Shown in pieces: positions 10,473 to 64,000 of a stretch of DNA of 64,000 nucleotides. The notes under the pieces were generated by a model. That model worked only from the letters and a program-made list of their open reading frames with translations, was not told the origin of the DNA and searched no databases. The stretch lies in the NCBI RefSeq assembly GCF_002127325.2, contig NC_035433.2, forward strand, positions 127,459,695 through 127,523,694, written 5' to 3'. Origin of the DNA: Helianthus annuus (Eukaryota; Streptophyta; Magnoliopsida; Asterales; Asteraceae). Each line of letters starts with the position of its first letter. Within the stretch, counting starts at the first letter, position 1. A program made the position numbers and the translations under genes.

Positions 10473-10648
10473 GTGCAAGAATGCTCCTAAGATCATCACA
10501 CATTGGCCTATAACTGATCATGGATGATGGGCAGGTGTCCCATGGTGCTATGGGTCGAGTAGGGGGCGCCCATGACTCTGGAAGACCCATCATTTATTGT
10601 TTTGCCGCTTACAACAGCCAACAGCCAATTTTCTGTCGCTGGGCATCG

Positions 10649-11380: not shown

Positions 11381-11454
11381 TCTGGTTCAGCTGGGGACAG
11401 TCTCTCTTGAAGTGGCCTTCAGCACCACACTGAAAGCATCCTTTGTTGTTACCC

Positions 11455-22370: not shown

Positions 22371-22376
22371 CAATTA
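22368..22376 (+). promoter_or_regulatory. Putative leaky stop TAG-CAA-TTA between protease and RT (Tat-1)
   Basis: The protease frame ends TAG CAA TTA, and codons after it continue homology to Tat-C in the same frame (LEASEQDV versus LEAREQDV). The hexamer CAA TTA after UAG fits the CARYYA consensus of tobamovirus-type readthrough. Confidence 0.6.
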
Positions 22377-22558
22377 AAGATGCGGGCCCAGGATATTCTG
22401 GAGGCTTCTGAGCAGGATGTAAAGAAAATTATCTTGGATCAGGATAACCCGGATATCTCAGTGCTCCTAGGAACCAATATCCCTCAGGATATTGAAAAAA
22501 ATTGACTAACTTTTTGAAATGCAGGATGTCGACATTCGCATGGAAACATGAGGATATG
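22377..22558 (+). pseudogene. Tat-1 RT N-terminal fragment
   Basis: After the UAG the frame continues for about 45 codons, then meets a TGA near 22503. In another frame STFAWKHEDM matches the start of RT in Tat-C (residues 45-54 there). The Athila insertion cuts it at 22559. Confidence 0.7.
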
Positions 22559-32696: not shown

Positions 32697-32883
32697 TGTT
32701 TTGGTCAAAAATCACACAAGGATAATGCAACCAAACTCTAGGTAAACGGGGAATGATGCTTAGTTTGTTGAAAAAGTAAAGGATCACTTTAGTGAGAAAT
32801 ATGCAAGTGACACAAGGATTTATACGAGGAAAAAGCCCTTGATCAATGAATGATCTCCGGCATAAAAAACCTCGGGTGATGGC
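32697..32883 (-). repeat. Tat-B 3' LTR, first segment
   Basis: This is the 187-bp terminal part of the LTR starting TGTTTTGGTCAAAAATCAC. It is interrupted after ATGGC by Tat-C and resumes at 52887. Confidence 0.88.
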
Positions 32884-33260
32884 TGTTTTGGTCAAAAATC
32901 ACACAAGGATAATGTAACCAAACTTTATGTAAACGGGGTATGATGCTTGGCTAATTATGAAAGTAAAGGATCACTTCTGTGATAAAGATGCAAAGACACA
33001 ATGATTTATACGAGGAAAAAGCCCTTGATCAATGTATGATCTCCGGCATAAAAAACCTCGGGTGATGGCAACTACCGATCACCAACTTCAATATAAGAAA
33101 AATATGATTACAACTTCGGATAGTAATGAGCTGAGTACAAGGATCACTATTGTTTTGAGCGTCTAAATGTGTGAGAGTTGTGTTGTATGTCGTGTGTGTT
33201 CTTCCGAATGAGGAAGAGTGGTATTTATATGTGTGTAGGTGACCTATTTTAGGTAGTTAA
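32884..33260 (-). repeat. Tat-C 3' LTR, first segment
   Basis: 377 bp from TGTTTTGG to GTTAA, where Tekay-3 is inserted. It continues at 42703. Confidence 0.92.
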
Positions 33261-36030
33261 TGTAACATCCGTCAAAATCGAACCTCTGAAATCCGACCCG
33301 GATTTGCAAAACCGGACCCTTGTCAATTAAATAAAAAAATAGGAAGTTTCATTATTTTGATCGTCAAGATTTGTGTTGGATTAAAAACGAAATAGAAGTG
33401 GAGGTTTATAAGCGAAACTCGTTGAACTCGGTTAATGGTTATAAATAAAATAATTAACTACGTTGAAGATGGTAGTTAAAACAAAAAGAGAGTTTTAAAC
33501 GTAAAAAAAAAAAGAGTTAAGTGGTCTAAACTTCAAAGTTAAAGGTTTAGGGTTGTTTTTGTAATTATTAGAAACTATATATTGCAAAACAAGTTAACTA
33601 ACTAGGTTATTAAACCTAGTTAAGTTAGTCTTTATTTTATAATGATAATCAACTAGGTTAAGTTAGTTAGTTAGCATTATAAGAGAAATTAGTCAACTAA
33701 GTTAGTTATATTGAGTTAACTCAGTTAGTAAGAGAAGGGGGTAAAGTGGCTGTGAAACTTGTTAAATCAAATAAAATAAAAAGAAAGGGTGACCACAGGT
33801 ATCGAACCCGGGTACCCTCACTGAACAAGTAGAGCACGCACCAACTGGACTACACCAGTTCATGTGACAAAACCCAAGTCGTTAATATAAAACCAGATCC
33901 GAAACCCGACTGTCTCTTTCTCCTTCTTGACTGTACGCGATCCGGACCGGAATTTCGAAGATACGAAGCGTTTTTCCTAAACTGTTGGACTCCAAATTAA
34001 TACCAATTAACTCGCAATTATGGAGGGTTATGTTTATCATCTTTCAATCGTTCAAAACCTCTAGATAGTCGATTCATTTGAACCTAGTAACTACACCATT
34101 AAAGCCTTGTATGAACACTTGTGGGTTTTTAGCAAATCCATAAAATTCGATCACAAAAACTATATCATCAGATTCGTAGCTTTAAACCACGCAAATACCC
34201 ACTGAAAGTTCATCATATCATCAACCATACATCACGAATTTAATCGAAGAACATTCTAGGGCTTGTAACTTGTGTGGACGATATCTCCTTCAATTCTCAA
34301 CGTTTTCAGGTGATTCCAAAGCCCAACTTGCTTAATTTTTCGGTCTCTACAATAGCCCTCTATCAATTTTAGTGATATAAGGTTAATTTATTCGAATTTA
34401 ATTTTAGTTGAAATTAGGGTTCTTCATGCGTAGAATTTGGGGCTTTTAGCTTTAAACTTGTGTTTTGATGAAATTGAAACTATAGTATTGTTATACATCA
34501 TACTAGTGTATTCTGCATAAATTTTGGGAATTTCTAAATATCAATGGAATTTTGGTGAATTATTTATATTTTAAACACTAGTTAAATCAAATGAAAATAC
34601 AAGATAGTCTTAAATAAATTCAATAAATATTTTTGTTGATTATTTCAGATTATTTAAAAACTAGATAATTTTTATAGAACTTTCCTTAATTTTTGGGAAT
34701 ATATAAATTTAAATTGGATTTATTATGGTTTATATATATTCTAATAACTTAATAATACCATATTATCACAAATAGATTTTATAAACACTTTTATTAACTC
34801 TCACTGATTATATAATTGTTATAGAACTTTTATAGATTATTTCTATAGTTTTTAGTAACTATTATGCAACTAAAGAATTTGTGAAATTCTTATACAAATA
34901 ATTCACACTACAAAATTATTATTTTTAGATTAAAATATGTAATGATCACTAAATCTATTATATGTGATAAATAGATGAGTTTTATGCACTTATTAAATTA
35001 TTGGCTATATCACATATTTGAAAAACCATTAAAATGGTGATTTTACGATTTTGTCATTTTAATATATCCTAGAATAATATAATTATTGATTTGGTTATTT
35101 TGGTTGAATAAATATAATTCTAAGTCCCCAAATAGGAGAACTCAATTTTCTAAAATCAATAGGTTATCCTTACGTTTAGTATTTCGTTTATTTACATTGC
35201 GGTTATTATTTAGATATAAACCGTTCCTTTTCGTGCGATGCATTCTCGTGGACTAACACTTCGCAACCTGTGAGTAATTTCTTCCATTTCCCCTTTTTAA
35301 TCTTTTACAAATTTTGGGGTGCATCACGTTACACTTTTCGATTTACTTAACATGCTATAATCAAGTGTTATTATGTGAACGTCTTATGTGTATTCTATAA
35401 TTCTATATGTTATCTGATGTCAAGTCTATTGCATGCTATTATTCTAGTGGATCCACACGGCTGACTAGGTTCCCCACGGCCATGGGTTGTAGCCTAGTAT
35501 CGCCAACAGTATTAGACTCGCTCCTCGGGGCTTGAGCCTAATGCACGCTATTATCAGGAGTCTATTTATTTTGGTTGTTTGTGTTGTTATTGGTGGTGTA
35601 TTCTTGTTTGGTAAATTTGGATTTATGGATATGTTTACTATGTTGATGATATGAGACCATTTACACACTAACCTTGAGGTGCATGTTAAAAATATTTTTT
35701 TTTAAAAAGAAATAAATATAAAACTGTTTTCTATAAAACGGAGGAAATTATTCACCAACTTATTTGTTGACCCAAAAATATATTTTTCTAACGTGGTGCA
35801 GGTTTTCAAAGTTGATGATCAAGTGATGTGGACACGTAGCATGGGCCTTAGGAAAATAAATTGAAATCTTGATATGTTTGTTTTGAACAATGTATGAACA
35901 ATTTTGATTATTATATGTGATGTGATTATTTAAATGGATATGCTTTAAATATTGAAACAATAATTAGTTGTCATGAGCTATGGGCAATCATCATGCCCCG
36001 TACCTTTCCGCTGCGGGTCGGGGTGTGACA
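33261..36030 (+). repeat. Tekay-3 5' LTR (2770 bp)
   Basis: It is AT-rich and non-coding. It contains a tRNA-like stretch on its minus strand (33783-33862) and short inverted-repeat phrases such as TAACTAGGTTA (33595-33700). Confidence 0.92.
33783..33862 (-). other. tRNA-like sequence inside LTR
   Basis: On the minus strand a B-box-like GGTTCGATACC (33798-33808) lies about 40 bases downstream of an A-box-like TGGTGTAGTCCAGTTGG (33841-33857), the spacing of a tRNA. Stems are only partly complementary and there is no clear anticodon arm or CCA, so this is not a functional tRNA gene. It could be a tRNA- or SINE-derived insertion. It is repeated exactly at 40448-40527 in the other LTR. Confidence 0.5.
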
Positions 36031-37250
36031 GATTGGTATCAGAGCCAATGACTATAGGGAATTAAGATAAGTTATTAGACCCTTAGACTTAGTCTATAGT
36101 CGATTAGGTACCTTAGGTACCTTATGTGCTTAATTGTTTGATTGTCTTAGCTAAAAAAAAATTTATTTAAAGTGCCCATGATTTAAATTTTCTATTGTCA
36201 CACACATATGCATGTGAGCACATCAAATTTTTATATGCTAAGTATTATATGCCATGAATGACATGTACCTTATTATTAAACTATAATTTATTATTTCTTT
36301 TTCCATGTCACGTCGCACACACCTTAAACAATATGCGAATATTCAACATTCTAATTCTTATTTCGATATATCTAAAGTCTTGAATCAATTCATTTTCTTT
36401 GATACATTTCAATTACTCATGAGTTTGATTTCATTTCATTTTTGAGTTTCAAATTTCAATTGATATTTCATTCTCGTCAAAGTGAGTTCTTGTGACGGAC
36501 ATGTAGTAACTGGAAGGGTTACGTACCGGTAGTCGGGACGTCCTGTCTAGGCTGGCATTCGTATAAATCCACTTAATGGACCAGTTTGCCTACCTGGGGA
36601 CTATCGACGAGAGTACCAATACCTATTAGGCCAAAGCATGTCACACCAAACGTCACGTGAACTAACAACACTTTGATATGTCAAACGTGTTTGTGTTAAT
36701 TTATGGATACTATCCTAAACATTGTTTTACAGCACCCCAAAACTCGAGTCATTTATTGATTCACGATTTTATTCGGGTTAAGTTGTACGTTAATGGGTAG
36801 ACATATGAGGACCATGCGAAAGCTCGGTAATTGCGGGTGCACACGTAATTACGAAAGTGACGCACGGAAGTCATACTAAACCTTATGATGTGCCAAACCT
36901 ATGATTTTCAATATTTTATGATGAAATATTATTTTGTCATAAGTTTTAATATCTTGTCTTATTCCACGTGGTTATTATATTGTTTCATATATAAACCACC
37001 AGAGTAAATCCTTAAATATTCCACGAGATTCTAATGAACTTTCTTTACACAAGTCACCCTAATCTTGTTGTAATTTGTCAAAGGGTTAGACTTTTGTTAC
37101 CCTTTGATACTCCATAATATTTTTCATGAGATTTGTATTCTTGAATCATGGGATTTTCCCTAAGTTCCATAATTTCACAAATCTATGAATCCTAACCATC
37201 TGACCATGAATCCTCGTTAAGGGGCTATACATCCTACTTAATTTGTCCCT
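36031..37250 (+). other. Tekay-3 primer site and leader
   Basis: TGGTATCAGAGCC (36034-36046) directly follows the LTR and is complementary to initiator tRNA-Met. The following 1.2 kb is a non-coding leader without recognisable features. Confidence 0.85.
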
Positions 37251-37680
37251 CGCAGATGCCACTTATCGTCGTCGTCGTCAACCGAGGATTTCTAACTGAC
37301 GAATGACAGGTTTGATAGCTGAACAAATGGCCGCAATTATTTCTACTATAGTCGTTCAAGTCCAACAGGCGCTTAACGCTCACGTTTCGACGAATCAAAT
37401 CGAATAGGTTAAATCTGAACCGTCTCCACCCGATAACAACCATCAAAGGAGTGAGACCAACCACGATTACGCCATACCGGCTGTTCCGCTAAACCAGGTT
37501 GCCCCTAATCCAGTACCTGACAGAAAACCTTATCGTGGACATTTTCCATAACGCCCCACTTGCCAAAAACATCACCCAGCCAACACTTTGTGCCACCTTT
37601 GCACTTATTGTGGACTTTATGGTCACTTAATCGACACCTGTCGACACTATAACCCTCAAACAGAACCCACCTATGGCACC
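37251..37680 (+). pseudogene. Tekay-3 gag relic with zinc knuckle
   Basis: Short frames with stops read DATYRRRRQPRIS, then MTGLIAEQMAAIISTIVVQVQQALNAH, and then CTYCGLYGHLIDTC, a perfect C-x2-C-x4-H-x4-C zinc knuckle. The order, N-terminal arginine cluster, helical part and knuckle, is that of a Tekay Gag, but the whole capsid core is missing between the helix and the knuckle. Only about 140 codons remain. Confidence 0.7.
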
Positions 37681-38198
37681 ATTTAATGTACAACACGTGA
37701 CAACTCCATTTGACCAACCAAACACCCACCTTATGATCCAACCGTATGTCCACCCCGACGCTCCACTAATGGATCAACCGACCGTACTTTATGGCACCCA
37801 ACTCGTTCCTTACGATCGAGCCGATCAAACTGAACTAGAGAACCAGAGTAACTAGAAGGCACGCGGACGAACACACATCTAGATCCAAGACGCGGTCAGC
37901 AGCACGACCAAATTTTATGCGATGAGTTATTGCGAATAAAATGTTTTAAGTTAAATTTTGTATGAACTAAATGGAAATACATAAGGATTGTTCCAAATCC
38001 CCGAGCACAAATATAACAATTTGAATTTTGGTTATATGTTTTAAACCTTAACGAGTATAACAATTTGAAGTTTGGTTATGTTTTAAACCTTAACGAGTCG
38101 CCTAATATGAGTTGAACGTCACAATCCTAACCAATATCGTAAGTTCGTAACCTATGCCCAGAGTTTGGAAAATTCAAGTCGAGGGCACATGGTGACGA

Positions 38199-38201
38199 TA
38201 A

Positions 38202-38269
<68 letters not shown>

Positions 38270-38270
38270 C
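38199..38270. repeat. TTA/ATT trinucleotide microsatellite
   Basis: About 23 perfect ATT units in a row. Frames through it (poly-Tyr or poly-Ile) are artefacts. Confidence 0.97.
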
Positions 38271-39067
38271 TTAAAATTTGGTTTTATAAAATAATAATAA
38301 ATATAATAAATATATATGGGAAGTGTTCTACTAAACATGTATTTCCTAAAGTTTAACGAAAATATTTTCCTAGATAAACTATGTTGCTTTTTGAACAATT
38401 TAAAATATCAATGTGCTACACATGGTAAAGTGTAAGTATAGTTAACAAAACGAAATGAATGTGAGTTAAGTTAACAAAGTTATGGTTTTCTTAATTTATT
38501 TTAGGACCCCTCCACTTTTGTCCGAATCGTAATTATCGTCCGACTGGTGGAAGTGTAAATCAATGCTGCTACTTCATCTCCTTCGCCATTCGACTTCACG
38601 TTTAGTTTTCCCTCATTAACAACTTCACCTGCTACTCTCACTTCGTATCCTTGACGTTCACACAAACGCCAATCGATACAATTACCAACTCTAAATCAGT
38701 ACCGTTGATAGCCTGTGTCGTTGTCACACTTTCGACGTTACTATTTGTCGTCGTTTTCATCCTTTACCCAGACGTTTTGTTTGTATCGCTATGCTATGCA
38801 TCTATGATTTGTTTTATTGCTAGTTCATGTTGTTGCAGTTTCACATCATCACTCATCACGGCTTACCTTTTCCCATAACTTGTGTGATATGGGTATCGTC
38901 TCACTTATTAATAGACTGACCCTTTTTCCCCATAACTATGGATGTAGGTACTGCCACCATTTAGTCACACCCTTTTTGGGTTCGAGACTCACACATTAGT
39001 TGGTTGTGGTTATTTAATTAGTAAGTTGCGTTGTCGCATAGAACCAATCAAAACTGCTAACGAAGCC

Positions 39068-39307
39068 GATGAAACTTGATAAGGATATGGTGGATACGAC
39101 GCTGGTACTTCCTATATATAAGTGTTCTTATCAAACTATCAAAAGCCTCGTTAGATTGGTTGACAGTAGTTCTATGCAAGATGTGTTGTCAATCATGATT
39201 CGAATAACGATGTGGATGAAAATTTGATAGAGACATGGTGGATACGCCGCTGGTACTTCCTATATATAAGTGTGTCTGTTAAATTTTCAAAAGCAGCGTT
39301 AGACTAA
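39068..39307. repeat. Diverged direct repeat, unit about 92 bp
   Basis: Two units share ATGGTGGATACG.CGCTGGTACTTCC, TATATATAAGTGT and a CAAAAGC..CGTTAGA end. They are separated by about 54 bp. Their origin is unknown. Confidence 0.78.
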
Positions 39308-39925
39308 TCATGAGTGTGTTAGTTAGTTTGTTTTGGTTTTGTGATTGGAGAATTCAAATTCTATGATTTCGCTAATCTAACTCAAATTGTTGCATTTTGT
39401 GAGAAATACACCAAGATCCCAAGTCTTGACACAGATTGCAGTTTAGCATCACGAGTATACATCATGACTCAGTTGCGAATTCTCAAGTGTTACTAATAAT
39501 CTTTGGGACATGATTTTCTCTTAAGCCGCAATTAATCCTCGATTGGTCATTTATGGGCTTCACGGTTGTAATGATCGTATGACCTATGACTGGCTACCTT
39601 ATACATGACAGTTAACGCTTTTTAATACTGCACCTTTGGCATTTAAAAGCGATTCCTCAGTTGGGTATGTAACCCTTGTCAGGAACGCTACCGCCTCAAT
39701 AAGTCTACACCTCTTGATATATCCTAGTTTGAGCACATTCTTAGCAACGTCAGGACTTGTGGTTAACACTTGTCACCAGACATTCCTAAGGAACAATCTG
39801 ATCTTAAGATTCGAGTTCCGGACGCTATTACTAAATCTACCGATATCGTTTATGTCTATGGAATTCATCCTATACAATCAGTTTCCTCCTAATTTCGGGA
39901 CGAAATTCCCAAAAGTTGGGGAGAC

Positions 39926-42697
39926 TGTAACATCCGTCAAAATCGAACCTCTGAAATCCGACCCGGATTTGCAAAACCGGACCCTTGTCAATTAAATAAA
40001 AAAATAGGAAGTTTCATTATTTTGATCGTCAAGATTTGTGTTGGATTAAAAACGAAATAGAAGTGGAGGTTTATAAGCGAAACTCGTTGAACTCGGTTAA
40101 TGGTTATAAATAAAATAATTAACTACGTTGAAGATGGTAGTTAAAACAAAAAGAGAGTTTTAAACGTAAAAAAAAAAAGAGTTAAGTGGTCTAAACTTCA
40201 AAGTTAAAGGTTTAGGGTTGTTTTTGTAATTATTAGAAACTATATATTGCAAAACAAGTTAACTAACTAGGTTATTAAACCTAGTTAAGTTAGTCTTTAT
40301 TTTATAATGATAATCAACTAGGTTAAGTTAGTTAGTTAGCATTATAAGAGAAATTAGTCAACTAAGTTAGTTATATTGAGTTAACTCAGTTAGTAAGAGA
40401 AGGGGGTAAAGTGGCTGTGAAACTTGTTAAATCAAATAAAATAAAAAGAAAGGGTGACCACAGGTATCGAACCCGGGTACCCTCACTGAACAAGTAGAGC
40501 ACGCACCAACTGGACTACACCAGTTCATGTGACAAAACCCAAGTCGTTAATATAAAACCAGATCCGAAACCCGACTGTCTCTTTCTCCTTCTTGACTGTA
40601 CGCGATCCGGACCGGAATTTCGAAGATACGAAGCGTTTTTCCTAAACTGTTGGACTCCAAATTAATACCAATTAACTCGCAATTATGGAGGGTTATGTTT
40701 ATCATCTTTCAATCGTTCAAAACCTCTAGATAGTCGATTCATTTGAACCTAGTAACTACACCATTAAAGCCTTGTATGAACACTTGTGGGTTTTTAGCAA
40801 ATCCATAAAATTCGATCACAAAAACTATATCATCAGATTCGTAGCTTTAAACCACGCAAATACCCACTGAAAGTTCATCATATCATCAACCATACATCAC
40901 GAATTTAATCGAAGAACATTCTAGGGCTTGTAACTTGTGTGGACGATATCTCCTTCAATTCTCAACGTTTTCAGGTGATTCCAAAGCCCAACTTGCTTAA
41001 TTTTTCGGTCTCTACAATAGCCCTCTATCAATTTTAGTGATATAAGGTTAATTTATTCGAATTTAATTTTAGTTGAAATTAGGGTTCTTCATGCGTAGAA
41101 TTTGGGGCTTTTAGCTTTAAACTTGTGTTTTGATGAAATTGAAACTATAGTATTGTTATACATCATACTAGTGTATTCTGCATAAATTTTGGGAATTTCT
41201 AAATATCAATGGAATTTTGGTGAATTATTTATATTTTAAACACTAGTTAAATCAAATGAAAATACAAGATAGTCTTAAATAAATTCAATAAATATTTTTG
41301 TTGATTATTTCAGATTATTTAAAAACTAGATAATTTTTATAGAACTTTCCTTAATTTTTGGGAATATATAAATTTAAATTGGATTTATTATGGTTTATAT
41401 ATATTCTAATAACTTAATAATACCATATTATCACAAATAGATTTTATAAACACTTTTATTAACTCTCACTGATTATATAATTGTTATAGAACTTTTATAG
41501 ATTATTTCTATAGTTTTTAGTAACTATTATGCAACTAAAGAATTTGTGAAATTCTTATACAAATAATTCACACTACAAAATTATTATTTTTAGATTAAAA
41601 TATGTAATGATCACTAAATCTATTATATGTGATAAATAGATGAGTTTTATGCACTTATTAAATTATTGGCTATATCACATATTTGAAAAACCATTAAAAT
41701 GGTGATTTTACGATTTTGTCATTTTAATATATCCTAGAATAATATAATTATTGATTTGGTTATTTTGGTTGAATAAATATAATTCTAAGTCCCCAAATAG
41801 GAGAACTCAATTTTCTAAAATCAATAGGTTATCCTTACGTTTAGTATTTCGTTTATTTACATTGCGGTTATTATTTAGATATAAACCGTTCCTTTTCGTG
41901 CGATGCATTCTCGTGGACTAACACTTCGCAACCTGTGAGTAATTTCTTCCATTTCCCCTTTTTAATCTTTTACAAATTTTGGGGTGCATCACGTTACACT
42001 TTTCGATTTACTTAACATGCTATAATCAAGTGTTATTATGTGAACGTCTTATGTGTATTCTATAATTCTATATGTTATCTGATGTCAAGTCTATTGCATG
42101 CTATTATTCTAGTGGATCCACACGGCTGACTAGGTTCCCCACGGCCATGGGTTGTAGCCTAGTATCGCCAACAGTATTAGACTCGCTCCTCGGGGCTTGA
42201 GCCTAATGCACGCTATTATCAGGAGTCTATTTATTTTGGTTGTTTGTGTTGTTATTGGTGGTGTATTCTTGTTTGGTAAATTTGGATTTATGGATATGTT
42301 TACTATGTTGATGATATGAGACCATTTACACACTAACCTTGAGGTGCATGTTAAAAATATTTTTTTTTTTAAAAAGAAATAAATATAAAACTGTTTTCTA
42401 TAAAACGGAGGAAATTATTCACCAACTTATTTGTTGACCCAAAAATATATTTTTCTAACGTGGTGCAGGTTTTCAAAGTTGATGATCAAGTGATGTGGAC
42501 ACGTAGCATGGGCCTTAGGAAAATAAATTGAAATCTTGATATGTTTGTTTTGAACAATGTATGAACAATTTTGATTATTATATGTGATGTGATTATTTAA
42601 ATGGATATGCTTTAAATATTGAAACAATAATTAGTTGTCATGAGCTATGGGCAATCATCATGCCCCGTACCTTTCCGCTGCGGGTCGGGGTGTGACA
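39926..42697 (+). repeat. Tekay-3 3' LTR (2772 bp)
   Basis: It is the partner of 33261-36030 at a constant offset of 6665 until a T run near 42360, where it is two bases longer. Confidence 0.93.
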
Positions 42698-42702
42698 GTT
42701 AA

Positions 42703-43052
42703 ACTAATATTCAGCTCATTACCCCTTTAGAAATGAGATACAATCTAGCCTAAATAGCCGCCCATAAATCAAGCCTTGTTTCCATATCCTGTGCAACGTC
42801 TATCTTTAATTAAGCTCTTACCATAATTGTGATGACGCGTCCCTTGATCATGATGCTTAGAGCGTATTCTGCTAGATATTCCTGCAAAATAACATTGCAT
42901 TAAGCGAAGATGATCGTTAGTATGAGGATCCTATAATGTCCCATGATCCTGATCCTGAAGTCCTGCTGAGGATCACTGTCTGCCAAAGAAATAAGGATCA
43001 CTGGTTAGGATCACGTGTAAGGATCACCTATAATAAAAATCCAGCCCTAACA
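42703..43052 (-). repeat. Tat-C 3' LTR, second segment
   Basis: It continues the LTR after Tekay-3 and ends CCTAACA (TGTTAGG on the minus strand). The polypurine tract TTTTGGGGGCAAT follows at 43053-43067. Confidence 0.92.
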
Positions 43053-43217: not shown

Positions 43218-43369
43218 GGAGATAGGGTTAGGATCATTTTGCATTTAAATTCAAGATACACTCCCTTTATATTCTGCACCGAAGATTGATCAGGTATTCT
43301 TCTCTTTCTCTCTTTCTTATCTCTTTGCTCTGTTTTCTGCTTCTACTCTGTTTCCGTCTCGTCACAAAC

Positions 43370-44981
43370 ATGTTGCTCCGGAATTCTCCACACAAGGATT
43401 CCAAGAAGGATAGTCCCTTAAAAAGCCAGGGGATTATCAAGGATTCTCCTACGGAGAGGTGTTGCTTCACTGATGTTCACATAGACAGAATTCGTCATTG
43501 CTTTCCGGCGAATGCTGTTTTCAAGTCCTTCACACCTACCGCTCTGAGTGACTCTGTTTCGGATACCTGGGTGGCTTTTCCTGCTACTCCATTTACCATA
43601 GGGTATTCATATCCTTTTCCATTGTTCACCCAATCTTTCTTTTCTTTAACCGGCATCTCATATATCCAAGCTATGCCGATGATCTGGAGGGTTCTGTATA
43701 CCTTCGAGAGGATCATCGAGCAGGAAGGGATTGATCTGGGGATGGCGGAGTTAGCTGAGTTTTACGATCTCACCACCTTTGGTTCTCACCGGTATTTGTT
43801 GAAACGGAAAGCCGGGGAGGATCACCCTGTCTTCAAGGTTACTAAGAACGATACAAACTGGAAGCGTCGCTTTTTCTTTGTTAGGAGGGATTCCATCCCA
43901 GATGGGAAGGATCTGCCCAAGGAATGGGCCACTCATGGTAGGATAGAGGATCCTCGAAGGATCACTATCAGCCCTGTCTCATATAATGAGGATCACTAAT
44001 ATCTCTTTTTATCTTTTGTGCAGCTATATCCATTGCTCATCTGAAATTAAGCCCTGCTGCAAAAGAGAGAGTCCTAGCTTTTAAAAAGCTTAATCCTGAA
44101 ATCAGAAGTTTCCAAGTCACCGTCCAAGATTCTCAAGAAGTATCCTCTGCATCTTCCACTATGTCAAGTAAGTATCCTTATAGAAAATAAATTAAATGTA
44201 GGATTGTTTGATTAATAAAGCAACTTATCTTGTTTTTTGATTGTGTAGGTGCTGGAAAGTCTGCCATGTCTGTCAAATCTGCCTCCAAATTTGGGATAAG
44301 TGATCTTGCCAATGTCATATCTTCAAAGAAGAAGGCTCCTGCTGCCAGTCCTTCGGCTTCAGCCCCCAAGGCACCTATCCGGGGCAAGGGAAAAAAGAGG
44401 AAAACCTCTGAAGATCTCCAAGGATTTCCCCTCCTCCGTCAGCAATTCCTTGACTACGTGAATGAGGTAAGGATCACTGCCCCTGTTGGTTATCCGTTTC
44501 GAATATCCTGTTTCTTTGAGGATCATCCGGTTCTGGACTTACCTTACTTCCCTCTTTGCAGAAACTTGCCGAGATCGAGACCTATCTTGGCCATGTTGAG
44601 GATCAAGAGAGCCAGATTGCCGACCTTCAACAAATGGGCGTGCTTAAGGATCTCAAGATAGCAGATCTTGAGAAGGAACTCCGGGCCATGAAGGATGAAG
44701 CTGCTCAGAGGTTGATCGATATGGATAACGAGAAGCCGGAGATCACCCAAGACGCCAAGGTCTCCGCGGCAATTGCTATGTACAAGATACAACTTCAGAT
44801 GGCTGAGGAGGCTCAGGATCCTACCTTTGACAAAAGCTCGTGGGACGTTGAAGGTTGGAAGGCAAGGCTGGCGGACCTGGAGGACGAGGATGAGGCTGAG
44901 GAGATCCCCATGCTGGAAGGTGGTGATGCTGAGAAGGATCAAGGTGGAGATGCTGGTGGTGATGAAGCAGCGAAGGTGTAG
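43370..44981 (+). CDS. aORF of Tat-C: intact four-exon antisense gene (449 aa)
   Basis: Exons 43370-43937, 44024-44167, 44249-44466 and 44562-44981 join into 1350 nt without a stop. The introns are 81-95 bp with GT..AG ends, polypyrimidine before AG, and phases 1, 1, 0. Residues 1-189 resemble the Transposase_28 family of plant gypsy-type proteins (FTIGYSYPFPLF, MIWRVLYTFERI, NWKRRFFFVRR). Residues 238-310 form a Ser/Lys-rich linker with a likely nuclear signal, RGKGKKRK, at 282-289. Residues 311-375 form a coiled coil, and the end is acidic. ATG 43370 is chosen by comparison with Tat-A. Antisense extra ORFs between pol and the 3' LTR are known in Tat elements. Their role is unknown; a nuclear or regulatory role is inference. 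Confidence 0.75.
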
Positions 44982-46370: not shown

Positions 46371-49649
<3,279 letters not shown>

Positions 49650-49667
49650 GACATTCCTTGGAGGATA

Positions 49668-49682
49668 CTGTAATTGCTATTG
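49668..49682 (-). promoter_or_regulatory. Putative stop-codon readthrough signal between protease and RT (Tat-C)
   Basis: On the minus strand the frame reads CAA TAG CAA TTA CAG. Protease ends at this TAG (49677-49679) and the pol frame continues without a shift to the Met at 49649. UAG followed by CAA UUA is the classic tobamovirus leaky-stop context, and here the flanking CAA and CAG match too. Tat-1 has TAG CAA TTA at the same place. Confidence 0.7.
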
Positions 49683-50372
49683 CTCCCTTGGCTTCGAGGT
49701 TGGCTTCATAGATGAGGTATAACAATCCTTAGCCTCCTGCTGATCACTGTCGATCTTGATTATCCCCCATGGGCTAGGGAGCTTCACACATTGATGGTAG
49801 GTGGATGGGACTGCTTTCATATCATGTATCCAGGGCCTGCCAAGGATAACGTTGCAACAGGATAAACAGTCAATAACACAAAATTTCTGATAATTATGTA
49901 ATCCTTCCACGTAGATTGGGAGTTTGATGTCCCCCAGAGTTTTCTTCGTTTCTCCACTGAATCCTACAAGCACGGAGGATCTCGGTGTGATGTCTGATTC
50001 TGGGATACCCATTTTCTTCAGAACATCAAGCTGGATAATGTTCACTGAGCTCCCTCCATCAATAAGGATCCTGCGGACAAAATGGTTAGAGATAAAGAGA
50101 GTGATGACTAAACTATCATGGTGAGGATCCTGAATGTTAATGCGATCATCCTCATCAAATGTTATCATCTTCCCTTCTGAGACACTTGATGTTCTAATAG
50201 GCCTTTCACCATTATCCATTTTTGATTCTTTTGCATGTCTTTTGGCCGCCGAGAAGGATGTACCACAGATGTCTGATCCTCCGGATATAAAGTTGATCAC
50301 TTGTGCATTTGCCGGAGGTGCTGGAGCTTTTTCGGGGATCCTTTCAGGATCCTGGGTCCTTTGCTTTTTCAC
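49677..50372 (-). CDS. Tat-C aspartic protease
   Basis: This 231-codon frame has the active site ILIDGGSSVNIIQL near residue 100. D-G-G-S is a Tat-type variant of D-T/S-G. Conserved flaps follow (VGFSGETKKTLGDIKLPIYVEG), then VILGRPWIHDMKAVPSTYHQC. It would cut Gag-Pol. In Tat-1 the protease is in the same frame as gag. Here gag and protease are in different frames because the nucleocapsid segment between them has been deleted, so the first Met is only a nominal start. It ends at the putative leaky UAG. Confidence 0.85.
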   Translation of the reverse strand: MKKQRTQDPERIPEKAPAPPANAQVINFISGGSDICGTSFSAAKRHAKESKMDNGERPIRTSSVSEGKMITFDEDDRINIQDPHHDSLVITLFISNHFVRRILIDGGSSVNIIQLDVLKKMGIPESDITPRSSVLVGFSGETKKTLGDIKLPIYVEGLHNYQKFCVIDCLSCCNVILGRPWIHDMKAVPSTYHQCVKLPSPWGIIKIDSDQQEAKDCYTSSMKPTSKPREQ

Positions 50373-52077
50373 CTAGATTCTGCATTGCAAGGATTAGTTC
50401 ATGATTATCAACGGAAAAACAATATTCTGAGATTGGAGGATATTCTTCATCATCCTCTTCTTGGTCAACAGCATGCACATTCTTGTTCTCATTTCTATGG
50501 TAGGATTTGAATTTGTTGTTCTTGAAGGAGGATCCTTGCTTCTCCTGTTTTGAGGATCCTACTTGTCTCTCCTGGATCCTCTTGTCATCCTCTAGCCGGA
50601 TGAACCTGAGTGCTCGAGTTCTTACTTCATCTAGATTCCTGCATGGTGTCATAACAAGATCATCATAGAATAATGAATCCTTAAGCAGTCCCATTTTGAA
50701 GGCTTCAACAGCCGTAGCCATATCCAAGTTGGGAATGTCTAAGGATTCTTTACTAAATTTGGTTATATAATCCCTTAATGATTCATTATGATTTTGAGTT
50801 ATCCTGTACAAATCACTAGTTAATTTTTCAAATTTTCTGCTACAAGAGAATTGGTTGTTGAATAAATTAACTAAATTAGCAAATGAAGTAATAGAATAAG
50901 GGGGAAGACTTAGCAGCCATTTAAGAGCTGATCCCGTAAGAGTGGATCCAAATCCTTTACATAGGCATGCTTCCTTCAACTTTTCTGGGATAGGATTGAT
51001 CTCCATCCTCTCCCTGTATTGTGCTATATGCTCCTCTGGATCCGTTGTGCCATCATATAGCTTCATGGTAGGGATATGGAACCTTTTGGGTACCTCTGCA
51101 TCACAAATTGGTGGTGCAAAGCGAGATACCTTGTGGCTTCCATCTGCAATCTCTGGGATAGGCTTGACTACCCCTGGAACACTTGAGATCATATCTCTTA
51201 GCTTCTGCAACTCCCTGGCCATAGCATGATTGGTACCTGTATCCTGCATGAATCCATGGTTAGTGGTAGGATAATTATTTAAAGTGTTACCTCCCATTGG
51301 GTTCAAGTTAGGGAACCCATATCGCTGGGATTCTGGAACAACGGAGGGACCAGTGGAAGCAATGGTCTGCATTGGAATGAAGTCCCCTTGATGGACATCT
51401 AGACTTCCTGTTTGCAAACTTTTTAGGGATCCTGGTATCTGGAAGGATCCTGGTGTCTGGGATGATCCTGGAACGAAGGAGGATCCTTGAACCTGGGATG
51501 ATCCTGGAACAAAGGAGGATCCTTGGCCCTGGAATTATCCTGGAAGAAGGTAGGATCCTTGAAACTGCTGTGCCCCCGGATAGGCTCCTGAATTCATGAA
51601 GGATCCCATGTACTGAGGGTAGGATCCTACTGGCTGAAAATGTGAGCCTGATGTCCGAGTTATTGCTGCCGACTTGAGATGTGATCCTCTTGACTCCCCT
51701 ATGATTTGCACGTCCGGGATCCCTGATGGCTGGGAAGTGATCATTGGAGTATCGAAGCTCAAGGATTTGGGCATCAGTGGGGAATGATCCTCTGCCGCTT
51801 TCTTTTGTCTTTTGAGGTCTCCAATTTCCCTGAGGATCCTGTCATTAGTCTCATCCTGCCGCTGCATACGATCCTTCATCTGCAAAATTAAAGCAAATAC
51901 ATCACTAGTACTGGGAATAGAAGAATTCATAGCAGAAGAAGATAGAGGTTTAGAGAAAGTGGGAGTTGATCTCTTCTCAGTATTTTTCTGAGATCCTGCC
52001 GGTGGAGGAGGCAAAGTGGTCTGTGATGAGGTGACTGCAGACATCGCCGTGGACGTGTTCTTCAATGATGAAGCCAT
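50344..52077 (-). pseudogene. Tat-C gag (one stop, nucleocapsid missing)
   Basis: Gag starts at Met 52077 (MASSLKNTSTAMSAV). It has a Pro-rich start, the coiled-coil-like LQMKDRMQRQDETNDRI, the 12-residue QGSSFVPGSSQ repeats (about 51420-51570), and a complete capsid region (SRFAPPICDAEVPKRF to YDDLVMTPCRNLDEV). A TAA at 51535-51537 falls in the repeat region, where Tat-E2 has a Ser codon. After NVHAVDQEED the frame ends at 50344. The zinc-knuckle block seen in Tat-1 (CAFHEDFGHVTEDC) is absent, and the reading joins protease out of frame. The segment from about 51417 to 50344 is otherwise open. Confidence 0.87.
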
Positions 52078-52133
52078 GTAACTCTTTGAAATGATTTCGA
52101 ACAAAATATTTTCTTATGAATGAAGCACCAATT

Positions 52134-52151
52134 GCCCCACGGTGGGCGCCA
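52134..52151 (-). other. Primer binding site, tRNA-Lys type (Tat-C)
   Basis: The minus-strand sequence TGGCGCCCACCGTGGGGC lies three bases after the LTR end. It is complementary to the 3' end of tRNA-Lys(CUU). Confidence 0.9.
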
Positions 52152-52154
52152 AAC

Positions 52155-52881
52155 TGTTTTGGTCAAAAATCACACAAGGATAATGTAACCAAACTTTATG
52201 TAAACGGGGTATGATGCTTGGCTAATTATGAAAGTAAAGGATCACTTCTGTGATAAAGATGCAAAGACACAATGATTTATACGAGGAAAAAGCCCTTGAT
52301 CAATGTATGATCTCCGGCATAAAAAACCTCGGGTGATGGCAACTACCGATCACCAACTTCAATATAAGAAAAATATGATTACAACTTCGGATAGTAATGA
52401 GCTGAGTACAAGGATCACTATTGTTTTGAGCGTCTAAATGTGTGAGAGTTGTGTTGTATGTCGTGTGTGTTCTTCCGAATGAGGAAGAGTGGTATTTATA
52501 TGTGTGTAGGTGACCTATTTTAGGTAGTTAAACTAATATTCAGCTCATTACCCCTTTAGAAATGAGATACAATCTAGCCTAAATAGCCGCCCAAAAATCA
52601 AGCCTTGTTTCCATATCCTGTGCAACGTCTATCTTTAATTAAGCTCTTGCCATAATTGTGATGACGCGTCCCTTGATCATGATGCTTAGAGCGTATTCTG
52701 CTAGATATTCCTGCAAAATAACATTGCATTAAGCGAAGATGATCGTTAGTATGAGGATCCTATAATGTCCCATGATCCTGATCCTGAAGTCCTGCTGAGG
52801 ATCACTGTCTGCCAAAGAAATAAGGATCACTGGTTAGGATCACGTGTAAGGATCACCTATAATAAAAATCCAGCCCTAACA
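52155..52881 (-). repeat. Tat-C 5' LTR (727 bp)
   Basis: On the minus strand it runs from TGTTAGGG (52881) to ACCAAAACA (52155). A TATAAATA box (minus) is at 52493-52500. The intact GTTAA near 52527 marks where Tekay-3 inserted in the other LTR. Confidence 0.93.
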
Positions 52882-52886
52882 ATGGC

Positions 52887-53733: not shown

Positions 53734-55405
53734 ATTTTGCTCCGAAATTCTCCCCATAAGGATCACGAGAAGAGTAGTCCCTTGAAAAGCCAAGGGATCA
53801 TTAAGGACTCTCCTACGGAGAGATGCTGCTTTACCGATGCTCATGTAGATAGGATTCGTCATTGCTTTCCGGCGAATGCTGTTTTCAAATCCTTCACATC
53901 CACTGCTTTGAGTGACTTTGTTTCAGACGCCTGGGTGGTCTTTCCTGCAACTCCGTTTACCATAGGATATTCGTATCCTTTTCCGGCCTTCACCCAATCT
54001 TTCTTTTCTTTGACCGGCATATCTTATATCCAAGCTATGCCGATGATCTGGAGGGTCTTGTATACCTTCGAGAGGATCATCGAGCATGAGGGGATTGATT
54101 TAGGGATGGCAGAGCTGGCCGAGCTTTATGATCTTACCACGTTTGGTTCTCATCGATACTTGCTGAAACGGAAGGCCGGGGAGGATCACCCTGTTCTAAA
54201 GGTTACCAAAAATGATACAAACTGGAAGCGTCATTTCTTCTTTGTGAGGAGGGATACCCTCCCTAATGGGAAGGATCTGCCCAAGGAGTGGGCCACCCAT
54301 GGTAGGATATAGGATCCTGGAAGGATCACCATCAGACTTGTCTCTTATGATGAGGATCACTAATGTCTTTCTTTGTTTTTTGTTTATTGTGCAGCTATCT
54401 CCATTGCTTATCTCAAGTTAACCCCTGCTGCCAGAGAGAGGGTCTTAGCTTTCAAGAAGCTTGATCCTGAAATCAGAAGTTTTCAAGTCACCGTCCAAGA
54501 TTCACAAGAAGTATCCTCCGCATCTGCCACTATGTCAAGTAAGTATCCTTATTAAAAAGTAAGTTATATGTAAGACTGTTTAGTTAGTAAGGGAACTTAT
54601 CTTGTTTTGGTTGTGTAGGCGCTGGGAAATCTGCTAAGTCTGCCAAGTCTGCCTCCAAGTTCGGGATTGATGAACTTGCCAATGTCAAGTCTTCAAGAAA
54701 GAAGACTTCTGTTGCCAGTCCCTCTGCTTCGGCCCCTAAAGCACCTGTTAGGGGTAAGGGAAAGAAGAGAAAGACTTCTGAGGATCTCCAAGGATTTCCC
54801 CTGATCCGCCAACAGTTTCTCGACTATGTCAATGAGGTAAGGATCATTGCCCCTGTCGGTTATCCTTCACGAGTATCCTGCTTGTGTATTCTGCTTGTAT
54901 ATCCTGCTTCTTTGAGGATCACCTGATCCTGAACTTACCCTTTTTTTTTCTTTTGCAGAAACTTGCTGAGATTGAGACCTACCTTGGCCATGTCGAGGAT
55001 CAGGAAAGCCAAATCGCCGACCTCCAACAAATGGGCGTGTTAAAGGATCTCAAGATAGCCGATCTTGAGAAGGAACTCCGGGCTACAAAGGATGAGGCTG
55101 CTCAAAGGCTAATTGACATGGATGGCGAGAAGCAGGAGATCATCCAGGATGCCAAGGTCTCTGCCGCAACCGCTATGTACAAGATACAACTACAAATGGC
55201 TGCGGAGGCTCAGGATCCTGCCTTTGACAAGAGCTCATGGGACGTGGAGGGTTGGAAGGCAAGATTGGCAGAGCTGGAGGATGAGGACGAAGCAGAGGAG
55301 ATCCCAATGCTGGAGGGCGGTGATGCTGACAAGGATCAGGGTGGAGAAGCTGGTGGTGATGGAGCAGCAAAGGTGTTTGCTGCTGGATTGGGCGATGATG
55401 GATAA
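53734..55405 (+). pseudogene. aORF of Tat-B, first complete copy (start codon lost)
   Basis: Exons are inferred at 53734-54301, 54395-54538, 54619-54836 and 54959-55405, with the same splice sites and phases as in Tat-C. The ATG is ATT here, with no nearby in-frame ATG upstream, so translation would need another start. The domain order is unchanged. The usual TGA after AAKV is altered to TTT, adding about nine residues to a TAA created exactly at the junction of a tandem duplication (55403-55405). The rest of the reading is open. Units 2-4 downstream repeat everything from late exon 1 onward. Confidence 0.72.
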
Positions 55406-58400
55406 AGGTTACCAAAAATGATACAAACTGGAAGCGTCATTTCTTCTTTGTGAGGAGGGATACCCTCCCTAATGGGAAGGATCTGCCCAAGGAGTGGGCC
55501 ACCCATGGTAGGATATAGGATCCTGGAAGGATCACCATCAGACTTGTCTCTTATGATGAGGATCACTAATGTCTTTCTTTGTTTTTTGTTTATTGTGCAG
55601 CTATCTCCATTGCTTATCTCAAGTTAACCCCTGCTGCCAGAGAGAGGGTCTTAGCTTTCAAGAAGCTTGATCCTGAAATCAGAAGTTTTCAAGTCACCGT
55701 CCAAGATTCACAAGAAGTATCCTCCGCATCTGCCACTATGTCAAGTAAGTATCCTTATTAAAAAGTAAGTTATATGTAAGACTGTTTAGTTAGTAAGGGA
55801 ACTTATCTTGTTTTGGTTGTGTAGGCGCTGGGAAATCTGCTAAGTCTGCCAAGTCTGCCTCCAAGTTCGGGATTGATGAACTTGCCAATGTCAAGTCTTC
55901 AAGAAAGAAGACTTCTGTTGCCAGTCCCTCTGCTTCGGCCCCTAAAGCACCTGTTAGGGGTAAGGGAAAGAAGAGAAAGACTTCTGAGGATCTCCAAGGA
56001 TTTCCCCTGATCCGCCAACAGTTTCTCGACTATGTCAATGAGGTAAGGATCATTGCCCCTGTCGGTTATCCTTCACGAGTATCCTGCTTGTGTATTCTGC
56101 TTGTATATCCTGCTTCTTTGAGGATCACCTGATCCTGAACTTACCCTTTTTTTTTCTTTTGCAGAAACTTGCTGAGATTGAGACCTACCTTGGCCATGTC
56201 GAGGATCAGGAAAGCCAAATCGCCGACCTCCAACAAATGGGCGTGTTAAAGGATCTCAAGATAGCCGATCTTGAGAAGGAACTCCGGGCTACAAAGGATG
56301 AGGCTGCTCAAAGGCTAATTGACATGGATGGCGAGAAGCAGGAGATCATCCAGGATGCCAAGGTCTCTGCCGCAACCGCTATGTACAAGATACAACTACA
56401 AATGGCTGCGGAGGCTCAGGATCCTGCCTTTGACAAGAGCTCATGGGACGTGGAGGGTTGGAAGGCAAGATTGGCAGAGCTGGAGGATGAGGACGAAGCA
56501 GAGGAGATCCCAATGCTGGAGGGCGGTGATGCTGACAAGGATCAGGGTGGAGAAGCTGGTGGTGATGGAGCAGCAAAGGTGTTTGCTGCTGGATTGGGCG
56601 ATGATGGATAAAGGTTACCAAAAATGATACAAACTGGAAGCGTCATTTCTTCTTTGTGAGGAGGGATACCCTCCCTAATGGGAAGGATCTGCCCAAGGAG
56701 TGGGCCACCCATGGTAGGATATAGGATCCTGGAAGGATCACCATCAGACTTGTCTCTTATGATGAGGATCACTAATGTCTTTCTTTGTTTTTTGTTTATT
56801 GTGCAGCTATCTCCATTGCTTATCTCAAGTTAACCCCTGCTGCCAGAGAGAGGGTCTTAGCTTTCAAGAAGCTTGATCCTGAAATCAGAAGTTTTCAAGT
56901 CACCGTCCAAGATTCACAAGAAGTATCCTCCGCATCTGCCACTATGTCAAGTAAGTATCCTTATTAAAAAGTAAGTTATATGTAAGACTGTTTAGTTAGT
57001 AAGGGAACTTATCTTGTTTTGGTTGTGTAGGCGCTGGGAAGTCTGCTAAGTCTGCCAAGTCTGCCTCCAAGTTCGGGATTGATGAACTTGCCAATGTCAA
57101 GTCTTCAAGAAAGAAGACTTCTGTTGCCAGTCCCTCTGCTTCGGCCCCTAAAGCACCTGTTAGGGGTAAGGGAAAGAAGAGAAAGACTTCTGAGGATCTC
57201 CAAGGATTTCCCCTGATCCGCCAACAGTTTCTCGACTATGTCAATGAGGTAAGGATCATTGCCCCTGTCGGTTATCCTTCACGAGTATCCTGCTTGTGTA
57301 TTCTGCTTGTATATCCTGCTTCTTTGAGGATCACCTGATCCTGAACTTACCCTTTTTTTTCTTTTGCAGAAACTTGCTGAGATTGAGACCTACCTTGGCC
57401 ATGTCGAGGATCAGGAAAGCCAAATCGCCGACCTCCAACAAATGGGCGTGTTAAAGGATCTCAAGATAGCCGATCTTGAGAAGGAACTCCGGGCTACAAA
57501 GGATGAGGCTGCTCAAAGGCTAATTGACATGGATGGCGAGAAGCAGGAGATCATCCAGGATGCCAAGGTCTCTGCCGCAACCGCTATGTACAAGATACAA
57601 CTACAAATGGCTGCGGAGGCTCAGGATCCTGCCTTTTACAAGAGCTCATGGGACGTGGAGGGTTGGAAGGCAAGATTGGCAGAGCTGGAGGATGAGGACG
57701 AAGCAGAGGAGATCCCAATGCTGGAGGGCGGTGATGCTGACAAGGATCAGGGTGGAGAAGCTGGTGGTGATGGAGCAGCAAAGGTGTGAGCTGCTGGATT
57801 GGGCGATGATGGATAAAGGTTACCAAAAATGATACAAACTGGAAGCGTCGTTTCTTCTTTGTGAGGAGGGATACCTTCCCTAATGGGAAGGATCTGCCCA
57901 AGGAGTGGGCCACCCATGGTAGGATATAGGATCCTGGAAGGATCACCATCAGACTTGTCTCTTATGATGAGGATCACTAATGTCTTTCTTTGTTTTTTGT
58001 TTATTGTGCAGCTATCTCCATTGCTTATCTCAAGTTAACCCCTGCTGCCAGAGAGAGGGACTTAGCTTTCAAGAAGCTTGATCCTGAAATCAGAAGTTTT
58101 CAAGTCACCGTCCAAGATTAACAAGAAGTATCCTCCGCATCTGCCACTATGTCAAGTAAGTATCCTTATTAAAAAGTAAGTTATATGTAAGACTGTTTAG
58201 TTAGTAAGGGAACTTATCTTGTTTTGGTTGTGTAGGCGCTGGGAAATCTGCTAAGTCTGCCAAGTCTGCCTCCAAGTTCGGGATTGATGAACTTGCCAAT
58301 GTCAAGTCTTCAAGAAAGAAGACTTCTGTTGCCAGTCCCTCTGCTTCGGCCCCTAAAGCACCTGTTAGGGGTAAGGGAAAGAAGAGAAAGACTTCTGAGG

Positions 58401-59016
58401 ATCTCCAAGGATTTCCCCTGATCCGCCAACAGTTTCTCGACTATGTCAATGAGGTAAGGATCATTGCCCCTGTCGGTTATCCTTCACGAGTATCCTGCTT
58501 GTGTATTCTGCTTGTATATCCTGCTTCTTTGAGGATCACCTGATCCTGAACTTACCCTTTTTTTCTTTTGCAGAAACTTGCTGAGATTGAGACCTACCTT
58601 GGCCATGTCGAGGATCAGGAAAGCCAAATCGCCGACCTCCAACAAATGGGCGTGTTAAAGGATCTCAAGATAGCCGATCTTGAGAAGGAACTCCGGGCTA
58701 CAAAGGATGAGGCTGCTCAAAGGCTAATTGACATGGATGGCGAGAAGCAGGAGATCATCCAGGATGCCAAGGTCTCTGCCGCAACCGCTATGTACAAGAT
58801 ACAACTACAAATGGCTGCGGAGGCTCAGGATCCTGCCTTTGACAAGAGCTCATGGGACGTGGAGGGTTGGAAGGCAAGATTGGCAGAGCTGGAGGATGAG
58901 GACGAAGCAGAGGAGATCCCAATGCTAGGGCGATGATGCTGACAAGGATCAGGGTGGAGAAGCTGGTGGTGATGGAGCAGCAAAGGTGTGAGCTGCTGGA
59001 TTGGGCGATGATGGAT
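54197..59016. repeat. Four tandem copies of a 1.2-kb aORF segment
   Basis: A unit from late exon 1 (AAAGGTTACCAAAAATG) to just past the aORF stop (GGCGATGATGGATA) is repeated at about 54197, 55403, 56609 and 57814. The spacing is 1206, 1206 and 1205 bp. Junctions share the microhomology TA. Copies are nearly identical. Unit 3 has a D-to-Y change and one T fewer in the polypyrimidine tract. Unit 4 has a TAA in exon 2 and a small deletion in exon 4. Each unit keeps all three introns, and exons lie at 55601-55744, 55825-56042, 56165-56611; 56807-56950, 57031-57248, 57370-57789; 58012-58155, 58236-58453, 58574-58936. The duplication is therefore at the DNA level. Confidence 0.92.
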
Positions 59017-59763
59017 ATTTCGAGACTAGGCCGGAGCCCAATTTTTTTTTGAGTTTGGTAGTGGTTTGTTTGTGGTTGTTGGTGTTTGAAACAATTATGG
59101 TTTGTAACTTGAACAATAGTTTTTAGGGTTAAGGATCATGGATCCTTTGGACAATAGGTAGGATTACAAAAGGTGGAGGGATCCTCTGTTTGGGGGATGA
59201 AGCCTTTGTGATCCTGCTGCTTTTAATTTCCTGCACCTGCTAAGACCGCATAGACAATGGACACCCTTTGCCAACCCATGTGGACGGGCCACGTTTTGAT
59301 GGTAGAAATGTGGGTTGGCAATTTTGACAACTTTTTGAAAGGGTTTAAGATCCTTTTGTTAATAATATAACTCTAATCTTTCTGGCTTATCTCGTGTTGT
59401 TATCCTTTATTTATCTTCTTATCTCCCAGTTTTTAGAAACATATTTGTTAGAGTAACAAGAGTTGAGCAAACCATGTTTGATAAATTTAGGATATGATCC
59501 TAGATCAAATATCCTATCATTGAAAATTTTCAAGGATCATAGTTTTAGTTGTCAAAGTGTAGGGGTTGGTTAGTATAATCAAAATAGTCAAGGATCATAC
59601 CTGAGGATCCAAGTTAGGATCCTAACCTTTAATCAGGATAACCATAAGTGAAATTTTAATGGATGATAAGGATCAAGGATCCTTATTTGTTAATCTTCGA
59701 GAACCTGAAAAATGGAACATATCTTGGGACTAAGCCAATGTAAAAGATAAATTAGTAGCTGGG
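59017..59763. other. Tat-B spacer after aORF, with conserved stem-loop
   Basis: It is homologous to the Tat-A and Tat-C spacers. The stem TTGCCAACCCA/TGGGTTGGCAA is at 59268-59278 and 59311-59321. It is non-coding and AGGATC-rich. It is interrupted by Tat-E2 after CTGGG. Confidence 0.75.
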
Positions 59764-62536: not shown

Positions 62537-63529
62537 ATGGCTTCATCATTGAAGAACACGTCCACGGCGATGTCTGCGGTCACTTCATCACAGATCACCT
62601 TGCCTCCTCCACCGGCAGGATCTCAGAAAAATACTGAGAAGAGATCAACTCCCACTTTCTCTAAACCTCTATCTTCTTCTGCTATGAATTCTTCTATTCC
62701 CAGTACTAGTGATGTATTTGCTTTGATTTTGCAGATGAAGGATCGTATGCAGAGGCAAGATGAAACTAACGAAAGGATCCTCAGGGAAATTGGAGATCTC
62801 AAAAGACAAAAGAAAGCGGCAGAGGATCATTCTCCACTGGTGCCCAAATCCTTGAGCTTTGATACTCCAATGATCACTTCCCAACCATCAGGGATCCCGG
62901 ACGTGCAAATCACAGGGGAGTCAAGAGGATCACGTCTCAACTCGGCAGCAATGACTCAGACATCAGACTCACATTTTCAGCCAATAGGATCCTATCCTCA
63001 GTACATGGGATCCTTCATGAATCCGGGAGCCTATCCGGGGGCACAGCAGTTTCAAGGATCCTACTTTATTCCAGGATCATTCCAGGGCCAAGGATCCTCC
63101 TTTGTTCCAGGATCATCCCAGGTTCAAGGATCCTCCTTTGTTCCAGGATCATCCCAGGTTCAAGGATCCTCCTTCGTTCCAGGATCATCCCAGATACCAG
63201 GATCCTTACAGATGCCAGGATCCCTAAAAAGTTTGCAAACAGGGAGTCTAGATGTCCATCAAGGGGACTTCATTCCAATGCAGACCATTGCTTCCACTGG
63301 TCCCTCCGTTGTCCCAGAATCCCAGCAATATGGATTCCCTAACTTGAACCCAATGGGAGGTAACACTTTAAACAATTATCCTACCACTAACCATGGATTC
63401 ATGCAGGATACAGGTACCAATCATGCTATGGCCAGGGAGTTGCAGAAGCCAAAAGACATGCAAAAGAATCAAAAATGGATAATGGAGAAAGGCCTGTTAG
63501 AACCTCAAGCGTCTCAGAAGGGAAGATGA
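62537..63529 (+). pseudogene. Tat-E3 gag with internal deletion
   Basis: Open from Met 62537 through the repeat region (five units of about 12 residues at 63055-63200) to MARELQK. At about 63448 it jumps directly to the sequence that in Tat-C lies near the start of protease (KRHAKESKMDNGERP), but out of frame, so it ends at 63529. The capsid core and nucleocapsid are missing. The deleted stretch is more than 900 bp compared with Tat-C. Confidence 0.87.
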
Positions 63530-64000
63530 TAACATTTGATGAGGATGATCGCGTTAATGTTCAGGATCCTCACCATGATAGCTTAGTTATCACTCTCTTT
63601 ATCTCTAACCATTTTGTCCGCAGGATCCTTATTGACGGAGGGAGCTCAGTGAACATTATCCAGCTTGATGTCTTGAAGAAGATGGGAATCCCAGAATCAG
63701 ACGTCACACCAAGATCCTCCGTGCTTGTAGGATTCAGTGGAGAAACGAAGAAAACTCTGGGGGACATCAAACTCCCAATCTACGTGGAAGGATTACATAA
63801 TTACCAAAAATTTTGTGTTATTGACTGTTTATCTTGTTGCAACGTTATCCTTGGCAGGCCTTGGATACATGACATGAAAGCAGTTCCATCTACCTACCAT
63901 CAATGTGTGAAGCTCCCTAGCCCATGGGGGATAATCAAGATCGACAGTGATCAGCAAGAGGCTAAGGATTGCTATACCTCATCCATGAAGCCAACCTCGA
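63448..64000 (+). pseudogene. Tat-E3 protease, partial
   Basis: From the deletion junction the protease frame is open to the window end and contains ILIDGGSSVNIIQL and VILGRPWIHDMKAV. It is nearly identical to Tat-C. The window stops about five codons before the position of the leaky UAG. Confidence 0.85.

Follow-up and report, generated by a model that had tools for sequence, protein, structure and literature searches.

The window analyzed here is a stretch of 64,000 nucleotides of the Helianthus annuus genome (contig NC_035433.2, positions 127,459,695 to 127,523,694), and its minus strand carries an LTR retrotransposon, hereafter the focal element. Its 5' LTR spans 727 bases (52155-52881, boundaries drawn by eye), and its 3' LTR is found in two parts, the first at 42697-43052 and the remainder at 32884-33268, beyond a later insertion. 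Over 747 aligned positions the two LTRs show 6 differences, and the sequence GCCAT is present at both outer ends of the element (52882-52886 and 32879-32883). The insertion splitting the 3' LTR (33261-42698) has terminal repeats of about 2773 bases (33261-36031 and 39926-42698) that are 99.93% identical, which indicates a very young element.

Reading from the 5' LTR, the focal element encodes a gag start (51535-52104) closed by an in-frame TAA at 51537, a gag piece with a Retrotrans_gag domain in Pfam (50344-51417), a protease frame (49680-50372) ending at a UAG, and a pol frame (46371-49676) with RT, RNase H, a second RNase H-like domain and integrase. The protease frame has no Pfam match and is assigned to the aspartic proteases by its relatives. 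The focal copy lacks about 170 bases near 50353-50381, where relatives carry the zinc-knuckle region, and because of this the gag piece ends in a frame other than that of the protease. None of the 29 other near copies has this gap (30 loci compared, the focal one included). With the in-frame stop at 51537 and the missing bases, gag of the focal copy is defective, and the case made below therefore rests on its relatives and concerns a trait of the family, not the working of this particular copy.

The focal element is most likely a Retand retrotransposon of the Tat lineage. A second RNase H domain serves as a criterion for Retand, common to Ogre too (PMC6317226), and in the focal pol RVT_3 (residues 517-634) lies between RT_RNaseH (372-466) and Integrase_H2C2 (735-790). 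Also characteristic of Retand is the long region between pol and the 3' LTR, which takes up about 3318 of the 9102 bases of the internal part (boundaries by eye) and contains an antisense ORF of 237 codons (43286-43999). This ORF has no match to any Pfam domain, TRP28 included; in a survey from 2025, TRP28 is missing in two clusters, H. annuus 4 and 5, the only exceptions (PMC11963269), so it is not required for Retand. These two clusters have LTRs of 719-720 bases, internal regions of 9310-9313 and pol-to-LTR regions of 3327-3343 (PMC11963269). The focal element fits these sizes, and very likely belongs to the same group.

The junction of protease and RT lies on the minus strand at 49682-49668 and has the sequence CAATAGCAATTACAG, read CAA TAG CAA TTA CAG, just as given in the initial annotation. 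The UAG (49677-49679) closes the protease frame, and the hexamer directly after it, CAAUUA (49671-49676), fits CARYYA. From the protease ORF (50372-49677) the reading frame continues in phase into pol (49676-46371); the two abut at one codon, with no spacer between them. The frame had been described as running unbroken into a pol of 1092 codons; it is indeed unbroken, and it has 1101 sense codons followed by a stop, the lower figure being a count from the TTG at 49649. The similarity said to continue across the stop (LEAREQDV versus LEASEQDV) is correct. With the type I readthrough signal known from plant viruses (PMC3542737, PMC5382211) the junction shares a UAG stop, CARYYA immediately downstream and an in-frame coding sequence, here the 1101 codons of RT, RNase H and integrase.

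The 9-mer TAGCARYYA occurs in the window at chance level (5 found versus 4.17 expected), and two of the five sites are the window's two protease/RT junctions, at 49679 on the minus and 22368 on the plus strand; the evidential weight therefore rests on where the sites are located. The 12-mer CAATAGCARYYA is found once against an expectation of 0.09, and at least once in 9 of 100 shuffles. Under the codon usage of the element itself, a hexamer following a stop is expected to match CARYYA in about 0.3% of cases. The exact 15-mer has at least 120 matches in viral contigs, so that a match over 15 bases carries little weight by itself when the collection searched is large; the tobamovirus core given in a review table is the ten bases A-UAG-CAA-UUA (PMC3542737).

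A hairpin is predicted by folding at 49643-49664 on the minus strand, starting 12 bases 3' of the UAG. Over 47 bases its z value is -2.34 in the focal element and +0.51 in an element of a second family described below, where the hairpin is absent, and for this reason it was set aside as a part of the signal. Two stem changes among other copies of the focal family keep the pairing as G-U, as judged by eye. In gammaretroviruses the readthrough stop lies before the protease, whereas in the sunflower element it lies after it. The two are alike in having an in-frame UAG between gag products and pol, which in gammaretroviruses sets the amount of Pol, and they differ in that the gammaretroviral (type III) signal needs a pseudoknot and a following G (PMC3542737); here C follows the UAG, in place of the G or purine-rich stretch of a type III signal, and as to a 3' structure, the predicted hairpin is not common to the second family. 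Type I signals need no hairpin, and a compact stem-loop is listed for the benyviruses (PMC3542737).

The second family is represented on the plus strand by a diverged and degenerate element (20199-22450) that extends from gag to the start of pol and is cut off shortly past the junction. Its junction reads GCA UAG CAA UUA AAG, with UAG CAAUUA at 22368-22376. The two elements agree in all nine bases of UAG CAAUUA, with flanks in a gap-free alignment at 66% identity over the 120 bases before and 52% over the 96 bases after; among the other nearby codons for the same residue, only 19 of 48 are identical. The protease of a third copy (63430-63999, plus strand) is cut by the end of the window, and its own CAATAGCAATTACAG lies just beyond.

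The sunflower genome was searched twice, once per family, and the best 40 of 1935 and the best 40 of 3357 candidate places were scored. In the focal family, CAA UAG CAAUUA was kept in all 39 places other than the query, so that both UAG and hexamer are retained and a sense codon at the stop is found in none of them; 0 of 351 motif cells were changed, compared with 14 of 2106 beside the motif. The full 15-base core was identical in 30 of 30 loci (L121-L150), and among the 30 focal-family loci read with their flanks, 14 have no stop except the UAG in 1166 codons. The copies of this family are too alike, however, for their conservation to be a test by itself. In the second family, among its 39 other copies in the best 40, the stop is UAG in 35, UAA in two, UAU in one and UUG in one, and the hexamer is CAAUUA in 37, CUAUUA in one and CAGUUA, which still fits CARYYA, in one. 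Changes affected 6 of 351 motif cells versus 137 of 2106 beside the motif. Copies of one family share descent, and neither counts nor cells are independent. Conservation of UAG and hexamer amid varying neighbours, which had been proposed as a check, was thus found as predicted in two diverged sunflower families.

Relatives outside sunflower were compared as annotated proteins, the DNA comparison covering sunflower only. Among the protease relatives listed (120 of 352 matches), 88 reach the last conserved Tyr and 79 of these 88 end 9-17 residues later; the length limit of this search favours proteins stopping there, and the counts therefore establish a shared position of the stop, not its frequency. 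The proteins ending at the junction come from Asteraceae, Caryophyllales, Rosales and Lamiales, among others, and many eudicot relatives share this position of the stop. A bias of the last residue before the stop towards residues with NNA codons (77 of 79) was dropped as an argument because the penultimate residue is equally biased (78 of 79). Among pol relatives of metagenome type, 12 of the 15 listed start at the junction or up to 32 residues after it, and three run across; gap-free extrapolation places one of the 12 starts about 5 residues before the junction. ORFs in these data were presumably called without introns. Searches of viral contigs, one prokaryote genome collection, plasmids and phages found no plant relative, and the plasmid search returned three records with distant RT matches (25-33% identity).

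Some relatives cross the junction in one ORF. Gln-Leu is the product of CARYYA when its second codon is UUA or CUA, and five of the 266 collected proteins have a sense codon at the stop position with Gln-Leu after it. The residue at the stop position is Tyr in Smallanthus (P0048), Microthlaspi (P0167), Arctium (P0179) and Brassica oleracea (P0242), and Lys in Centaurea (P0164). Those that cross without Gln-Leu include proteins from Daucus (P0154, P0155, P0162, P0163, P0169), P0109, P0113, and proteins from Tasmannia, Platanthera and Perilla together with several from Brassica. In the 2025 survey a single gag-pol ORF is given for 37 Retand clusters (59%), and for 83% in eudicots (PMC11963269), a figure which either limits the generality of the signal or reflects how ORFs were drawn there.

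In our assessment it is very probable, by analogy with plant viruses, that UAG CAA UUA acts as a type I (tobamovirus-style) readthrough signal of the sunflower Retand element, yielding Gag-Protease and a little Gag-Protease-Pol. Most ribosomes would stop at the UAG and release Gag-Protease, and a few would insert an amino acid (probably tyrosine) at the UAG and continue to Gag-Protease-Pol. Such an arrangement may serve to set the ratio of Gag to Pol, keeping the copying enzymes scarce relative to the coat protein. In plants, UAG in the context of TMV is read as Tyr, and readthrough is about 10% in the virus (PMC2754532). The Tyr found in four of the five sense-codon relatives with Gln-Leu fits the insertion of tyrosine by readthrough, with the caveats that Tyr accounts for two of the eight sense codons reachable from UAG by a single substitution, that two of the four cases are from Brassicaceae and that the number is small. 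Ribosome profiling in Arabidopsis found no enrichment of CARYYA among genes with readthrough (PMC11062462); the hexamer is therefore not the sole context of readthrough, and the result is no test of the sunflower site. The initial proposal of readthrough is supported by sequence comparison as a trait of the family, and, gag being broken, it does not mean that the focal copy itself works.

The type I signal of tobamoviruses, pomoviruses and benyviruses has the same UAG and CAAUUA, an in-frame extension and an A before the UAG (PMC3542737). The viral signal is situated in a replicase or coat protein gene, whereas the sunflower candidate is situated between protease and RT of an LTR retrotransposon. 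Within plant retrotransposons a precedent is RIRE2, a gypsy element of rice (Ohtsubo 1999) which is cited as a readthrough candidate (PMC2754532) and placed in Retand (PMC6317226), and which is known here from that citation and a table alone. It is of the same lineage; the sunflower case differs in coming from a eudicot and in a hexamer whose conservation is demonstrated in the genome. SIRE1 of soybean is likewise a plant LTR element with a suppressed in-frame stop, which allows an envelope-like protein to be made (PMC2829016, PMC2194720), but it is of the copia type and its stop lies between pol and the envelope-like gene.

The main and serious rival to readthrough is alternative splicing, in which the stop would be removed from some transcripts and Pol made from the spliced message. 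As the initial annotation stated, some Tat elements do splice out the stop: Ogre, from a related Tat clade, also has Gag-Pro and RT-RH-INT as two ORFs and splices at the same domain boundary, some of its transcripts losing the spacer as an intron (PMC6317226). Some gene models of relatives, in Tagetes, Centaurea and Mikania, appear to skip the stop by an intron as well, and GT and AG dinucleotides are shared on either side of the junction. The Ogre ORFs are, however, 274 bp apart on average (PMC6317226), whereas in the focal element a non-coding spacer of this type is absent, the ORFs abut and both sides are coding. The apparent donors vary between gene models, as would be expected of forced predictions, and in a gap-free alignment the focal element lacks a GT at the position implied by Tagetes, which is known from gene models. 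The 14 of 30 loci in which the UAG is the sole stop also speak against an intron, and splicing would not need Gln-Leu next to the stop, yet Gln-Leu is kept. We consider splicing as the source of Pol unlikely.

A history in which the UAG was inherited as a functionless defect, Pol being supplied by rare sense-codon copies, appears very unlikely: the sense codons (UAU, UUG) in two and the UAA in two of 39 second-family copies, and the sense-codon relatives in other plants, would fit such a history, but the focal family has no sense codon in 39 copies, the stop occupies one place across several plant orders, and a random stop would only rarely be followed by a fit to CARYYA. A separate downstream start of Pol, by reinitiation or internal entry, is extremely unlikely, since residues conserved in relatives (LEAxEQDVxE) precede the first in-frame AUG of the focal pol (codon 41) and such a start would leave the conservation of the hexamer and Gln-Leu unexplained, even though pol has a long frame of its own and the second family has an in-frame AUG four codons past the UAG.

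The initial annotation treated readthrough as not known to be described for plant Tat elements; given the earlier candidacy of RIRE2, the idea as such has a precedent in the lineage, and together with the stop suppression in SIRE1 this argues against wide novelty. No description of CARYYA at a Tat or Retand junction was found in the literature consulted, RIRE2 being known from citation only, and a literature search joining retrotransposon readthrough and CARYYA found no paper. The excerpts of two sunflower papers (PMC11728184, PMC9784723) contain nothing on the protease/RT junction, and those of a 2025 review give the plant strategies as frameshifting or two transcripts and do not name readthrough among them (PMC12786077). 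If readthrough is indeed used, an abundant lineage of plant retrotransposons would rely for the control of Pol on the six-base signal of plant RNA viruses instead of on frameshifting or splicing. Its copies would then provide a large natural set of variant readthrough sites for studies of termination in plants, and the splitting or mis-splicing of these elements at one fixed place in gene models would be accounted for. More tentatively, and with somewhat less than even confidence, we suggest that a type I stop may have been the ancestral gag-pro/pol switch of eudicot Retand, kept across plant families and setting the amount of Pol, and that single-ORF lineages may sometimes have fixed it as a Tyr codon, the residue that readthrough would insert.

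Other repeats share the window with these elements. A pair of LTR-gag units, arranged head to tail and 98% and 92% similar to 50912-52881, lies between 59764 and 63460 with no pol in between, the protease of the last one leaving the window. A further head-to-tail array at 54197-59017, with a unit of about 1206 bases and copies about 99% alike, apparently lies in the pol-to-LTR region of a related element. Another retroelement occupies 1-11382, bounded by direct repeats of 914 bases (1-914 and 10469-11382) that are 99.7% identical; on the minus strand it carries long ORFs between 948 and 8024, and its RT is about 28% identical to that of the focal element.
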